Part shown: piece after piece, positions 3,802-16,115 of the stretch | How the letters are laid out: every line of letters begins with the position of its first letter | Position numbering within the stretch: the stretch's first letter is position 1 | IMG/VR virus record: IMGVR_UViG_3300000549_000002 | Location: 1-26,367 of that record | Source of the DNA: a virus | Strand: one strand, 5' to 3' | DNA length: 26,367 nucleotides | Position numbers and translations under genes: made by a program | Notes under the pieces: generated by a model | Database searches by the model: none | Seen by the model: only the letters and a program-made list of their open reading frames with translations | Told to the model about the DNA's origin: nothing

Positions 3802-4029
3802 ATGTCTGACCATGAACAACTAAAAGACGTAACGTGCGAAAAGTGCAAACGAGTAATCGGGCAGCGCGACGGTTCATTATTTATTCAATTCGGGATGCGC
3901 ACGAAGTTCAATAAAACGGCGAGAATCTTTTGCCCGTTCATTGGTTGCGGATTCGAGCAGGATTTTTCGGTCAATCGTGAGAAAAAGTCTATATTTCCAA
4001 AATTTTCGTTGACAAACGCGCCGACTTGA
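3802..4029 (+). CDS. Small zinc-ribbon protein
   Basis: This 75-aa protein has two cysteine knuckles, C12-x2-C15 (TCEKCKR) and C44-x4-C49 (FCPFIGCGF), separated by a basic stretch. That is the layout of a zinc ribbon, and it loosely recalls Mu Com-type translational regulators. The start ATG directly follows the stop of the HExxH gene, so the two are probably translated together. The 3' end overlaps a promoter-like sequence that would serve the next cluster. Function is unknown; binding of nucleic acid or a protein partner is plausible. Confidence 0.65.
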   Translation: MSDHEQLKDVTCEKCKRVIGQRDGSLFIQFGMRTKFNKTARIFCPFIGCGFEQDFSVNREKKSIFPKFSLTNAPT

Positions 4030-4037
4030 TATACTTT
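4009..4037 (+). promoter_or_regulatory. Sigma70-like promoter before scaffold/capsid cluster
   Basis: A perfect -35 box TTGACA lies at 4009-4014 inside the end of the zinc-ribbon gene. It is followed either by TATACT at 4030-4035 (15-bp spacer) or by TACTTT at 4032-4037 (17-bp spacer). Transcription would begin near 4042, just before a run of stem-loops. The short spacer of the better -10 box makes the strength uncertain. Confidence 0.55.
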
Positions 4038-4041
4038 TATT

Positions 4042-4193
4042 TTTGAACGCGCGAGAAATACGCGCAAACTACAATTAAATGCGGATTCGTCCGCAGTTGG
4101 GGTAAATCCCCGAACCAAAGATTAACGCCTTTGATTCTCGAAAGAGTTTCAGAGGCGTTTTTACTTTTAAATCTAACCAATCCCGCTAAGCGG
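4042..4193 (+). promoter_or_regulatory. Structured leader RNA with attenuator-like terminator
   Basis: This 150-base stretch has no gene but is full of stem-loops. They are GCGCG/CGCGC (4049-4053 with 4061-4065), GCGGA-TTCG-TCCGC (4081-4094) and GGGG-TAAAT-CCCC (4099-4111). A short hairpin CAAAG/CTTTG pairs 4116-4120 with 4129-4133. It overlaps, and so competes with, the large terminator hairpin at 4124-4159. A final CCGC-TAA-GCGG lies at 4183-4193, 22 bases before the scaffold ATG. The order promoter, structured RNA, terminator, gene is that of an attenuator or antitermination leader. It could also be a discrete small RNA of about 120 nt. I do not recognise it as a known riboswitch class. 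Confidence 0.5.
4124..4162 (+). terminator. Strong intrinsic terminator in scaffold leader
   Basis: The outer stem AACGCCTTTGA (4124-4134) pairs with TCAGAGGCGTT (4149-4159) with one T-G wobble. After a TT/TT internal loop, CTC-GAAA-GAG closes the top with a GNRA tetraloop. A T run spans 4158-4162. It lies upstream of the scaffold gene and downstream of a promoter-like site, so it would block the late genes unless bypassed. Confidence 0.7.
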
Positions 4194-4215
4194 AAAACAT
4201 AAAAGCCAAGCCGAT

Positions 4216-4920
4216 ATGTCAATAAAAATTATAGCTGATACCAAAGATGAGTTTCCCGAAAATCTCCGAAGCCAAGCCGAAGAAATAGACGGTAAATTTC
4301 AAATCGATGGAAACGGTCTGATTAACAAAAACAAAGAGTTATTAAGGGATTTATCTAAGATAAACACCAAAATCGAAACTCTCGAAGCCGACAGGGACGC
4401 CGCCAGAGCCGAAGCGACCGAATGGAAAGGCAAAGCCAAACTTCCAGCCAGTCACAAAATTGTTCCCGATGATGTCGCCGAATTAGGCGAAGCGGCGAAA
4501 GAAGCCGGACTTGTCAAAGATGAGCTTCCGACATTGAAAACCGCAAAAGAAGATTTGCAGTCAAAACTTGACTCAATTGGTGAACAAACACTGCGCGAGC
4601 AAGCGGCAAAGTCAGTCGGAAAAAGATTTGAAAACTTTGACGACCACGCGACCGCCAAAAATTTGAAGTTTTCCAAGAAAACCGAAAAAGACGGCGATAA
4701 GGGCGTTGATTATTTTGTCGTTATCGGCAAAGACGCCGAAGGCAAGGACACCGAAACGAAGCTTGTCGATTATGTCAAAGACAAATCTTTGCCGGATGCG
4801 GAAGGCTCAAACGACAGGCGTTATATCGGACAGGAATCAGGAAAAGACGGAAAGCCGCCGGGCAACATTGCCGAGGCGCATATGCGGAAACGCTATACAG
4901 GAATATCAAAAAAAGATTAG
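4216..4920 (+). CDS. Probable capsid scaffold protein
   Basis: This 234-aa, highly charged protein has a long predicted coiled coil from about residue 35 to 75 (NKNKELLRDLSKINTKIETL and following), a second helical segment around 95-125, and a basic C-terminus. That is the usual composition of internal scaffolds that organise the major capsid protein during prohead assembly and are then lost. It lies two genes upstream of the major capsid protein, as in many siphophages. The gene begins after the structured leader at 4042-4193. No serine-protease motif is visible, so it does not appear to be a protease-scaffold fusion. Confidence 0.75.
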   Translation: MSIKIIADTKDEFPENLRSQAEEIDGKFQIDGNGLINKNKELLRDLSKINTKIETLEADRDAARAEATEWKGKAKLPASHKIVPDDVAELGEAAKEAGLVKDELPTLKTAKEDLQSKLDSIGEQTLREQAAKSVGKRFENFDDHATAKNLKFSKKTEKDGDKGVDYFVVIGKDAEGKDTETKLVDYVKDKSLPDAEGSNDRRYIGQESGKDGKPPGNIAEAHMRKRYTGISKKD

Positions 4921-4929
4921 GAGAATATT

Positions 4930-5553
4930 ATGGCTAGAATTTCGGAAGAAAGTAATACGCTGACCGCACCCGCGTGGGCAGGCGATTTTTTCAGCCGCGA
5001 ACGCCTGTTGCCGGGCGGCGCAAAATTAGTCGCTTCCGATTTCAACTCGGTTGACGCGGTAATTGTAGTAGTCGGCGGCGCAGGTGCGGCACAAGCTGCA
5101 ACGTCAATTCCGGTTGACGCGCTTTCGGGCGCGATTCCGAACGGCACGACATTGGCTTTTGCGGGCGGAACTGAGTTTGCGACATTAACGGCAGCGGCAG
5201 CGGCAGGCGCAACAACGCTGACCGTTACGGCTTTAGTAAATGCGCTTGAAGCGGCTGACACGGCGACGTATGCGGGCGTTTTGAATCGCAGGACGGTAGT
5301 TTCCGGCACGTTGGTCGGCAGAAGCTATACGGAGCGCGACGCGGGGACAGGCTTCGGCGCGGCAGCTGACGCTGACGACGAATTTTATCTCGTCGCATTT
5401 GACGTGCGCGATTTGAACGACAACACCGACGTTGACCTTTACCGGCACGGCGGGATTGTCAAAGAAAACTTTTTACCCGTGTTTAGCTCGCTAAGCTCGG
5501 CTTTAAAAGCAAAAATTCGCCTGCTTTACGAATCGACGCGGGGGGTAAATTAA
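4930..5553 (+). CDS. Decoration-like head protein
   Basis: This 207-aa protein lies just before the major capsid gene and is preceded by a good AGGAGA ribosome site. Residues about 55-115 are alanine- and threonine-rich with alternating beta strands (SIPVDALSGAIPNGTTLAF, then TLTAAAAAGATTLTVTAL). Strand-rich inserts of this type are common in phage decoration or head-fibre proteins. Residues 120-200 contain VVSGTLVGRSY and a segment ending DVRDLNDNTDVDLYRHGG, typical of proteins that sit on the capsid surface. The probable role is capsid stabilisation or surface display; no enzyme motif is visible. Confidence 0.6.
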   Translation: MARISEESNTLTAPAWAGDFFSRERLLPGGAKLVASDFNSVDAVIVVVGGAGAAQAATSIPVDALSGAIPNGTTLAFAGGTEFATLTAAAAAGATTLTVTALVNALEAADTATYAGVLNRRTVVSGTLVGRSYTERDAGTGFGAAADADDEFYLVAFDVRDLNDNTDVDLYRHGGIVKENFLPVFSSLSSALKAKIRLLYESTRGVN

Positions 5554-5554
5554 T

Positions 5555-6643
5555 ATGGCAGATTTAATCACTTTAGTAAAAAACGCAATGGAAGACGGCA
5601 CGTTCGCAACGATTGCCGGCAATACAGCGGCACAGTTCGGCGTTCCTTCCCGGCAATATCTAGGCGCGACGCTTTTGCCCGAAAAAACCGTGATGAAAAA
5701 CATGTATCGTGAGCAAGGTATTCGCTACCGCACGATTATCGCCAACGACGGCACGCGTTTTTCGCCTGCGCAAAAGAAAAAGGGCGAACTTTTCGGCTCG
5801 ATGTTGGTTGAACTCGGAAACTCTGACATCGCCAGAGAAATCACCGCCGAAGAATACGACGCTTTAATCGATTATCTCAACCGCAACGCTTCGATGGAGG
5901 CAGTGGCGCAGATGATTGATTGGGTTGACGTGGTTCTAAACCGCGCTTTGCTCGAAAAGAACGAGAAGCAACGATGGGAAGCTATCGTTTCGGCGCAGGT
6001 CGTCCGCCAGGGCGACAACAACTATACGGAAACGGTTTCCTATCCGAATCCGTCGGGACATCGCGTGAACGCGGGCGGAACGTGGTCTTCTGACGCATAC
6101 GACCCGTTTACCGACATTCTGGCGCAGGCTGACCTTTTGGAGTCGAAAGGCTTTACGGTTAACCGTATTATCGCCTCGCGTCCGGTTATCTCGATTCTCG
6201 CCGGAAACGACAAGGTTAAAGCCCGCACAGGTGTTGCCACCGTTTCATCGTCAGGGCAAATCCAAGCAACCGCCGGGCGCGCTTCAACCGACGCTATCAA
6301 TATGGCTTTGGAGCGTGACGGTTTGCCGCCGATTGAGCGATACGATTTGCAATATCGAACGCAAACCGGAACTGGTCGCTTCTTAGCGTCAAACGTTTTC
6401 GTAATGATTGCGACGACCGGACGCGACGAAACAATCGATTTAGGCGACAGCGAAGAGCTTTTGACCGATACGCTCGGCTATACGGCAATCGGACGCGCCG
6501 CCGGACAAGCACAGCCGGGCAGGGTCGTCAGAATGGAGGCGTTTAGCAATAAGCCGCCGCGCGTGGAAGGTGAAGCGTGGCAAACGTCTTTGCCCGTCAT
6601 TACCGAACCCGAAGCGATTTCAGTTATCGGCTCAATCAGCTAA
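5555..6643 (+). CDS. Major capsid protein (E family)
   Basis: This 362-aa protein has the features of the phage major capsid protein E family (lambda gpE-like, HK97 fold). The N-terminal segment SRQYLGATLLPEKTV matches the family's early region. It is followed by a long helix (EYDALIDYLNRNASMEAVAQ), an internal TVNRIIASRPVISIL strand-loop, and a C-terminal DLQYRTQTGTGRFLASNVFVM stretch leading to the final beta strands. It starts one base after the preceding gene ends and would form the shell hexamers and pentamers. A GAGAAG/CTTCTC hairpin lies just past its stop. Context and length agree well. Confidence 0.9.
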   Translation: MADLITLVKNAMEDGTFATIAGNTAAQFGVPSRQYLGATLLPEKTVMKNMYREQGIRYRTIIANDGTRFSPAQKKKGELFGSMLVELGNSDIAREITAEEYDALIDYLNRNASMEAVAQMIDWVDVVLNRALLEKNEKQRWEAIVSAQVVRQGDNNYTETVSYPNPSGHRVNAGGTWSSDAYDPFTDILAQADLLESKGFTVNRIIASRPVISILAGNDKVKARTGVATVSSSGQIQATAGRASTDAINMALERDGLPPIERYDLQYRTQTGTGRFLASNVFVMIATTGRDETIDLGDSEELLTDTLGYTAIGRAAGQAQPGRVVRMEAFSNKPPRVEGEAWQTSLPVITEPEAISVIGSIS

Positions 6644-13717: not shown

Positions 13718-13730
13718 CAAATAGAAAAAA

Positions 13731-13761
13731 GCGGGGTTAACGATTCAACTGTTAACCCCGC
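13731..13761 (-). terminator. Perfect 11-bp terminator for cargo genes
   Basis: GCGGGGTTAAC (13731-13741) and GTTAACCCCGC (13751-13761) are perfect inverted arms around nine bases. Six A's precede the left arm, giving a T run after the stem on the minus strand. It therefore ends the two-gene minus-strand module beginning at 15127. It faces the early-operon terminators. Confidence 0.8.
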
Positions 13762-13786
13762 TTATTTAGGAACAATCTTAAATATT

Positions 13787-15127: not shown

Positions 15128-15447
15128 CGGCTGAATTTTAGATATAGAGTAAAAATAAGCGTTTCGTAGTTTACTTTATTTTTACAAAAAATACCTAACT
15201 TACAAACCGAAATCCAACTAAATCAAGCAGTTTTTCTTTCAAAGACCTGTCTAATGTACATATCTAATGGCGAGAAATGTTTCAGAAATTTGCTTATTTA
15301 CTTTTCGTCTTTATAGTCTGCTCGCCGAGCTTTTAATGCCGCTCATCAAAAGCCGCTTTTTTATTGAACTTTTCTCAAAACAGTGGCATCATACTTTTGA
15401 TGTTTAGGTTTTCTATACAAAATCTTATAAAAAGGTGGTGGTTAAAA
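15128..15447. other. Intergenic region between divergent cargo genes
   Basis: This 320-base AT-rich gap separates the minus-strand GAF module from the plus-strand toxin module. I see no tRNA or further gene. It must hold both promoters, but no convincing -35/-10 pair stands out. A hairpin with a T run lies at 15329-15362. A frame open from ATG 15364 runs into the antitoxin gene, but the ribosome site favours the later start. Confidence 0.5.
15329..15362 (+). terminator. Terminator-like hairpin upstream of toxin module
   Basis: GCTTTT (15329-15334) pairs with AAAAGC (15348-15353). ATG/CAT extend the stem after one mismatch, and a T run follows at 15357-15362. No plus-strand gene lies directly upstream, so it may insulate the cargo module from read-through or be the remains of an older gene end. 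Confidence 0.45.
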
Positions 15448-15675
15448 TTGGCAAGCAAAGCTCAAGATTACAAGAAAAGAGAAAAGGACGTGAAAGTAAA
15501 CACTAACGCGCGTACGGTTCGATGCACTTCCGATGTAAAAAACACCACTGTATCCAAACCCAGAGAGCATTATGTTAAGCGCGAAACCACAGCCGACGAA
15601 AGAGCGGCGAGAAGAAAAGAATTAACGCTGAGGACATTTGCCGCCGCGTATGAAAGCCATAATAAAAAACGTTAA
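15448..15675 (+). CDS. Putative antitoxin paired with PIN toxin
   Basis: This 75-aa, very basic protein is read from TTG 15448, which lies seven bases after a strong AAGGTGGTGG ribosome site. An in-frame ATG at 15364 would add a hydrophobic 28-residue extension with no good ribosome site. It is rich in Lys, Arg and Thr (KAQDYKKREKDVKVNTNART, later TADERAARRKELTLRTFAAA) and ends in a helix. Its stop overlaps the toxin ATG (TAATG). No classical antitoxin fold such as AbrB, RHH or Phd is evident. Position before a PIN gene makes it the probable antitoxin. Confidence 0.55.
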   Translation: MASKAQDYKKREKDVKVNTNARTVRCTSDVKNTTVSKPREHYVKRETTADERAARRKELTLRTFAAAYESHNKKR

Positions 15676-16115
15676 TGGCGAAATATACCTTTGACACTTC
15701 ATTTATCATTTCAAACAAATTGTCGGATTATCCCGACAATTTTCTTTTGTCCGAAGTTGTTATTCTCGAATTAATTGCAAGCGCGACAGATGAAACCGTT
15801 TGTAAGTTTCATCAGGCTACGCGCAGAGCCTACGCCGATGATGATTTATTAATTACGCCGAATACGGACGACTGGCTAATGGCTGGTAAAATCCTTTACT
15901 GGCTGGAGCAGGGAAGAAAGAGAGGAAATAGAGGCAAATCGCCGCCGAAACGTCCCGGCGCAACTCAAAGAATGGCTCTCGACGCTCTGATTGCGACAAG
16001 CGCGCGCCGTTATGATGTAACCGTCGTCACCGAGAACTTTGACGATTTCAACGCGATAAAATATTACTGCCCGTTTAAGCTAATCAGAGGCGCGGACTTT
16101 CTCGCAGGGAAATAA
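15675..16115 (+). CDS. PIN-domain ribonuclease (VapC-like toxin)
   Basis: This 146-aa protein has the acidic residues of PIN ribonucleases in order: D7 in KYTFDTSFIIS, E32 in SEVVILELIAS, D103 in ALDALIATSARR, and the final TENFDDFNAI (119-128). Such proteins usually cut tRNA or rRNA and are held inactive by an upstream antitoxin. The one-base overlap with the preceding small gene supports a toxin-antitoxin pair. In a prophage it may stabilise the element or act in phage exclusion. A terminator follows. Confidence 0.82.
   Translation: MAKYTFDTSFIISNKLSDYPDNFLLSEVVILELIASATDETVCKFHQATRRAYADDDLLITPNTDDWLMAGKILYWLEQGRKRGNRGKSPPKRPGATQRMALDALIATSARRYDVTVVTENFDDFNAIKYYCPFKLIRGADFLAGK

Follow-up and report, generated by a model that had tools for sequence, protein, structure and literature searches.

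We propose that the stretch immediately upstream of the head genes in the metagenomic phage record IMGVR_UViG_3300000549_000002 carries an attenuator of late-gene transcription that lies close to its promoter and is relieved by a trans-acting factor, a reading that the comparisons below make somewhat probable. Production of head proteins would then probably be held back until RNA polymerase reads through. The anatomy of this cassette, its homology to others, its covariation and its repetition can be read at the sequence level. The record spans 26.4 kb (26,367 nucleotides; this whole stretch is hereafter the window) and opens with the small terminase gene, followed by the large terminase, the portal, two small ORFs, the leader, a scaffold-type ORF, a decoration-type ORF and the major capsid protein. 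The relevant features are:

3802-4029, + strand: Cys-pair (zinc-ribbon-like) ORF of 75 aa that ends inside the promoter (ORF list; weak similarity)
4009-4035, + strand: promoter-like TTGACA-N15-TATACT, alternatively read as TTG-N20-TAC (TTG-N20-TAC in 6/6 homologous cassettes)
4049-4065 (5 bp), 4080-4095 (6 bp) and 4097-4113 (6 bp), + strand: three leader hairpins
4116-4133, + strand: mini-hairpin P2, CAAAG-ATTAACGC-CTTTG, a putative antiterminator (fold; in-register conservation in six cassettes)
4124-4159 (stem) and 4158-4168 (U-rich tail), + strand: intrinsic terminator (z -6.2, match to covariance model R1, covariation in homologues)
4185-4196, + strand: short hairpin CCGCTAAGCGG, lying 3' of the terminator and 5' of the start codon and common to L046 by alignment
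4216-4920, + strand: scaffold-type ORF, first gene of the operon 3' of the leader (ORF list)
4930-5553: decoration-type ORF, 3' of the scaffold-type ORF
5555-6643: major capsid protein (PF03864 match)

The scaffold label for 4216-4920 derives from position alone, without a family match. A Shine-Dalgarno match precedes 10 of 23 window genes, and relatives with matches to the major capsid protein were found in Chloroflexota genomes. A search of the window for tRNA and tmRNA genes returned none. Elsewhere in the window, a 103-aa ORF overlaps a PIN-domain protein (15364-16115) in a toxin-antitoxin-like pair, and a strong hairpin flanked on either side by T-tracts, a bidirectional terminator, lies between convergent genes (13727-13764).

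The preliminary description of this DNA had placed a TTGACA/TATACT pair ahead of several stem-loops, a strong terminator and the scaffold ATG. Both boxes are present (4009-4014 and 4030-4035), and no other + strand site in the window matches at 11 or more of 12 positions when spacers of 15-19 nt are allowed; the - strand holds one site of this quality and shuffled sequences average 0.4. A standard scan with 16-18-nt spacers misses this promoter because its spacer is 15 nt. Among relatives, a TTGAC box separated from TA[TC]A.T by 8 nt, or in one case by 9 (L002:4472, L004:5592, L010:4444, L012:3713 and 4515, L014:3068, L020:4555), is enriched, with seven copies at N8 versus 0-6 at other spacings. 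This spacing is one helical turn shorter than that of a canonical promoter, and the copies are nearly all on the + strand, 5' of the scaffold ORF; canonical spacing is seen in promoters of an associated Chloroflexota genome and in other promoters of the L012 record.

Folding and the ORF list likewise bear out the hairpins, the strong terminator at 4124-4162 and the scaffold ATG at 4216. The region 4040-4180 folds with a z-score of -6.3 (0/200 shuffles as good), the part of the window leader before the terminator is itself structured (z -3.4, p 0.006), and over eight leaders the pre-terminator segments fold better than shuffles (Fisher p 1e-5). The terminator (-21.9 kcal/mol, z -6.2) consists of an 11-bp outer stem, 4124-4134/4149-4159, and an inner CUC-GAAA-GAG, followed by UUU-A-CUUUU. 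The claim that a CAAAG/CTTTG hairpin overlaps its left arm also holds: the arms of P2 (4116-4120/4129-4133, 5 bp, loop AUUAACGC) join the five bases just 5' of the terminator to stem bases 6-10 of its left arm, giving two competing folds. A 17-mer, CGCTAAGCGGAAAACAT, was found elsewhere in phage L046 only. The Rfam comparison that the preliminary description had proposed returned no family match, at the gathering threshold or at E-values up to 10, and an exact-pattern scan with the window terminator found none.

To place the leader in context, we collected about 40 related loci by capsid-protein searches. Their leaders are mostly not alignable with the window, and the hairpins at 4049-4113 could not be aligned to the relatives' leaders. 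Intrinsic terminators are nevertheless concentrated just 5' of the scaffold ORF, with 12 found versus 0.22 expected (38 windows of 130 nt, expectation from the rest of the same loci). The T-tract mostly lies 31-70 nt from the scaffold ATG, often with another hairpin between, which leaves little space for a second promoter, and the capsid mRNA would therefore have to pass the terminator. Five relatives (L025, L026, L027, L032 and L035) have no leader before the scaffold gene, so that the pre-scaffold leader is not universal. That several relatives do without the terminator suits an explanation in which an incomplete terminator and a local promoter simply set the dose of capsid protein, without regulation, and terminators between head-gene blocks are common. 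We consider this improbable: a promoter followed by a strong terminator within about 90 nt makes little sense for dosage alone, and the conservation of P2 described below is left unexplained by it.

The scaffold/portal relatives L041, L053 and L046 were taken as the whole records G218, G219 and G217, respectively. Together with the window they provide six homologous cassettes, five of them in the three relatives (G217B, G218A, G218B, G219A and G219B). G218 and G219 carry two each, one before the scaffold gene and one before PAS-domain, terminase and portal genes, and the G217 cassette precedes an N-acetylmuramidase (endolysin) gene. All six have in common TTG-N20-TAC (a 15-nt spacer when read as -35/-10), then a leader of 49-88 nt and a terminator with TAACGC at its foot; the leader sequence between promoter and P2 varies among them. 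A unit complete from promoter to terminator and present in two copies in two phages could also be a stand-alone gene for a free, trans-acting sRNA, the capsid genes being reached by leaky read-through from the unit or from the portal genes, and L004 has a tRNA gene in the same slot. This is in our estimate quite unlikely, since the sequence from promoter to P2 is variable, wherever a phage carries the cassette a late operon follows it directly, and an sRNA needs no competing hairpin.

The gene in L004 is a tRNA-Met (5988-6062); some 480 nt lacking a good ORF (6063-6545) separate it from the scaffold gene, and this 483-nt stretch shows no unusual structure (z -0.2). The corresponding slot of L020 holds an incomplete tRNA-like stretch that ARAGORN does not accept. 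G219 (L053) is a mosaic, in which portal, scaffold and leader are related to the window and the major capsid protein has no detectable similarity. Phage late operons in L071 (8710-9333) and L069 (18656-19279) begin with a gene, located after cassette B and before that of the small terminase, for a PAS-domain protein whose N-terminus has an apparent membrane segment.

A MAFFT alignment of all six cassettes misaligned the shorter stem of the window, and pair counts were therefore taken from four- and five-sequence alignments while the P2 register was tested by script. In the terminator, both sides have changed in 7 of 17 pairs (0/500 shuffles), and in the leader hairpin P1 (5-6 bp, 10-nt loop), which accompanies P2 in the homologous cassettes, two pairs have changed on both sides. 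The preliminary description had named a lack of covariation in relatives as an outcome that would count against it, and these changes favour it. R1, a covariance model of P2 and the terminator from which the window was left out, matches the window once (4114-4163, 27.3 bits, E 2.7e-6). It also matches the pre-scaffold leader of L010 (31.2 bits); the capsid protein of that phage is 69% identical, and its leader is otherwise not alignable. Scores of at least 27 bits occur three times in 41 Chloroflexota genomes. The model also has matches in the bacterial genomes L076 and L077, and the one in L077 proved on inspection to be an ordinary end-of-gene terminator.

The competing hairpin is kept in register. 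Its arms read CAAAG/CTTTG in the window, GCAAG/CTTGC in G217B, ACACG/CGTGT in G218A, ACACG/TGTGT in G218B and ACGCG/CGTGT in G219A. All five pairs form in five cassettes and four of five in G219B, compensatory changes included, which gives 29 of 30 pairs in a register that was defined post hoc, after inspection. Shuffling the upstream sequence gave at most 26 pairs in 5000 trials (0/5000 reached 29), although close kinship links four of the six cassettes and 30 of 720 reassignments of the arms score as well. In a control set of 200 unrelated terminator-like hairpins from the same loci, only 2% had 5/5 pairs in the P2 register. Over all relatives with any terminator, a shuffle test for a competing hairpin was not significant (p 0.13), and the homologous cassettes were needed for this reason. 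The in-register fold, the covarying terminator and the repetition before late operons agree with the attenuator layout that had been suggested for this leader.

An alternative is that a Q-, P7- or put-like factor modifies the polymerase after loading at the leader hairpins or at a promoter-proximal DNA site, with P2 incidental. The order of promoter, terminator and late genes is that of lambda pR' and Xp10 (PMC7171158; PMC6624301), P2 is missing from the pre-scaffold leader of L046, and in more distant relatives promoter and terminator persist without a conserved P2. We regard this possibility as rather doubtful, since it does not account for why P2 stays in register in six cassettes and the leader hairpins contain no conserved two-stem put fold. 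Furthermore, Pfam and PHROGs searches of a subset of the proteins of this fragmentary record recognised no Q, N or P7 homologue.

The P2 and terminator folds overlap, and their free energies are far from balanced. P2 amounts to -2.0 to -3.5 kcal/mol in the window and -2 to -6 kcal/mol across cassettes, as against -21 to -30 kcal/mol for the cassette terminators, and blocking the right arm of the window terminator costs 15.6 kcal/mol. Being so much weaker than the terminator, P2 would have to be aided by a bound protein or by the kinetics of the polymerase. Based on this arrangement, we infer termination, its relief late in infection, a role for P2 as antiterminator and the existence of a factor. 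RNA polymerase would start at about 4042, transcribe a structured leader about 120 nt long and stop by default at the terminator, which ends at about 4160-4166, so that the scaffold, decoration and capsid genes would be little expressed. Termination would be relieved once the late genes are on, either because a trans-acting factor holds P2, which uses the left arm of the terminator, or because the polymerase is modified; the factor would probably be phage-encoded. Read-through would then reach the capsid operon and, since the same cassette precedes further late operons in relatives, it would act as a shared late switch.

A candidate for the trans-acting factor is the zinc-ribbon protein. The Cys-pair ORF lies directly 5' of the cassette in the window and L010, closes the same-strand gene block that precedes cassette B in G218 and G219, and lies close 5' of cassette B in G217. 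The window protein (3802-4029) has no family match; it is weakly similar to the 67-71 aa proteins 5' of the cassettes in G217, G218 and G219 (28%, E 1e-5 in a single pairwise comparison), and its HMM match to them has an E-value of 0.83. Because this resemblance is weak, we treat the protein as a lead only. A bolder proposal, which we hold to be unlikely, is a new class of switch in which the 5-bp mini-hairpin (loop ending TAACGC) of the repeated cassettes would be bound by the adjacent phage zinc-ribbon RNA-binding protein, so that terminase, lysis and capsid operons would be co-activated.

On present evidence, the cassette would work like BglG/ANTAR antiterminators or like lambda-Q/Xp10-P7 control while being a member of none of them. 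The BglG/SacY RAT is an antiterminator stem-loop of 29-30 nt that overlaps the terminator, and lambda Q control involves a phage-encoded antiterminator of the Q family, a Q-binding DNA element and a sigma-dependent promoter-proximal pause. The cassette resembles the RAT of BglG, SacY and LicT and the ANTAR systems (EutV, NasR) in that hairpin and terminator overlap and are mutually exclusive and that the element is repeated; unlike a RAT, P2 measures 17-18 nt and has no Rfam match. In the eut ANTAR elements, a short hairpin overlaps the 5' arm of the terminator and is repeated before several transcription units, and the target RNA has two mini-hairpins with hexanucleotide loops carrying A at position 1 and G at position 4 (PMC3369931). 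The loops here have 7-8 nt in P2 (nTAACGC) and 10 nt in P1, rather than forming hexaloops with A1/G4, and the window proteins that were scanned include no recognised BglG or ANTAR protein. Under lambda Q at pR'-tR' and Xp10 P7, late structural and lysis genes stand behind intrinsic terminators that need bypass (PMC7171158, PMC6624301), as the late genes do here, whereas the present cassette is repeated before several late operons and has a conserved competing hairpin. The put RNA of HK022, about 70 nt with two bulged stem-loops in early transcripts (PMC9378689), likewise begins a phage transcript with hairpins that precede a terminator. Going by its description, it differs from the cassettes, which have one to four hairpins, precede late operons and have a P2 that overlaps the terminator. 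Since the defining features tested are absent, we do not assign the cassette to ANTAR, RAT or put; the suggestion of a put-type RNA fails in the strict sense, the homologous cassettes having one P1 of 5-6 bp and P2 in place of two long bulged stems.

A ligand-sensing leader had also been suggested, and hairpins, a competing fold and a terminator are indeed present. A riboswitch is nonetheless extremely unlikely given the lack of an Rfam match, the variable leaders of 49-88 nt with no conserved aptamer-sized core, and the repetition before phage late operons, where structural and lysis genes follow without a metabolic theme. Trp-type leader-peptide attenuators are marked by a conserved short ORF with control codons. 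This type was set aside: the 8-codon ORF in the window leader (4079-4105) has no counterpart seen by inspection in G218A, G218B, G219A or G217B, and the G219B leader has only a 3-codon ATG ORF. Two features of an intrinsic-terminator attenuator are present, namely a strong hairpin with a U-tract 5' of a gene and a conserved, mutually exclusive pairing.

To our knowledge, the timing of late-gene expression is unknown for most uncultured phages. A recurrent cis cassette before late operons could guide the annotation of late transcription units and predicts short leader RNAs visible to Term-seq. It also points to antitermination by a factor that falls outside the lambda-Q and P7 paradigms. Direct reporter tests are possible thanks to the covariance model and the conserved register.

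In some relatives, a small hairpin (such as TGACTCAAGGAGTCA or TGTCTCAAGGAGACA) between the terminator and the scaffold ATG encloses the Shine-Dalgarno sequence. Such hairpins in L009 (4611-4630), L012 (4655-4675) and L031 (about 4600-4623) suggest a second, translational control.
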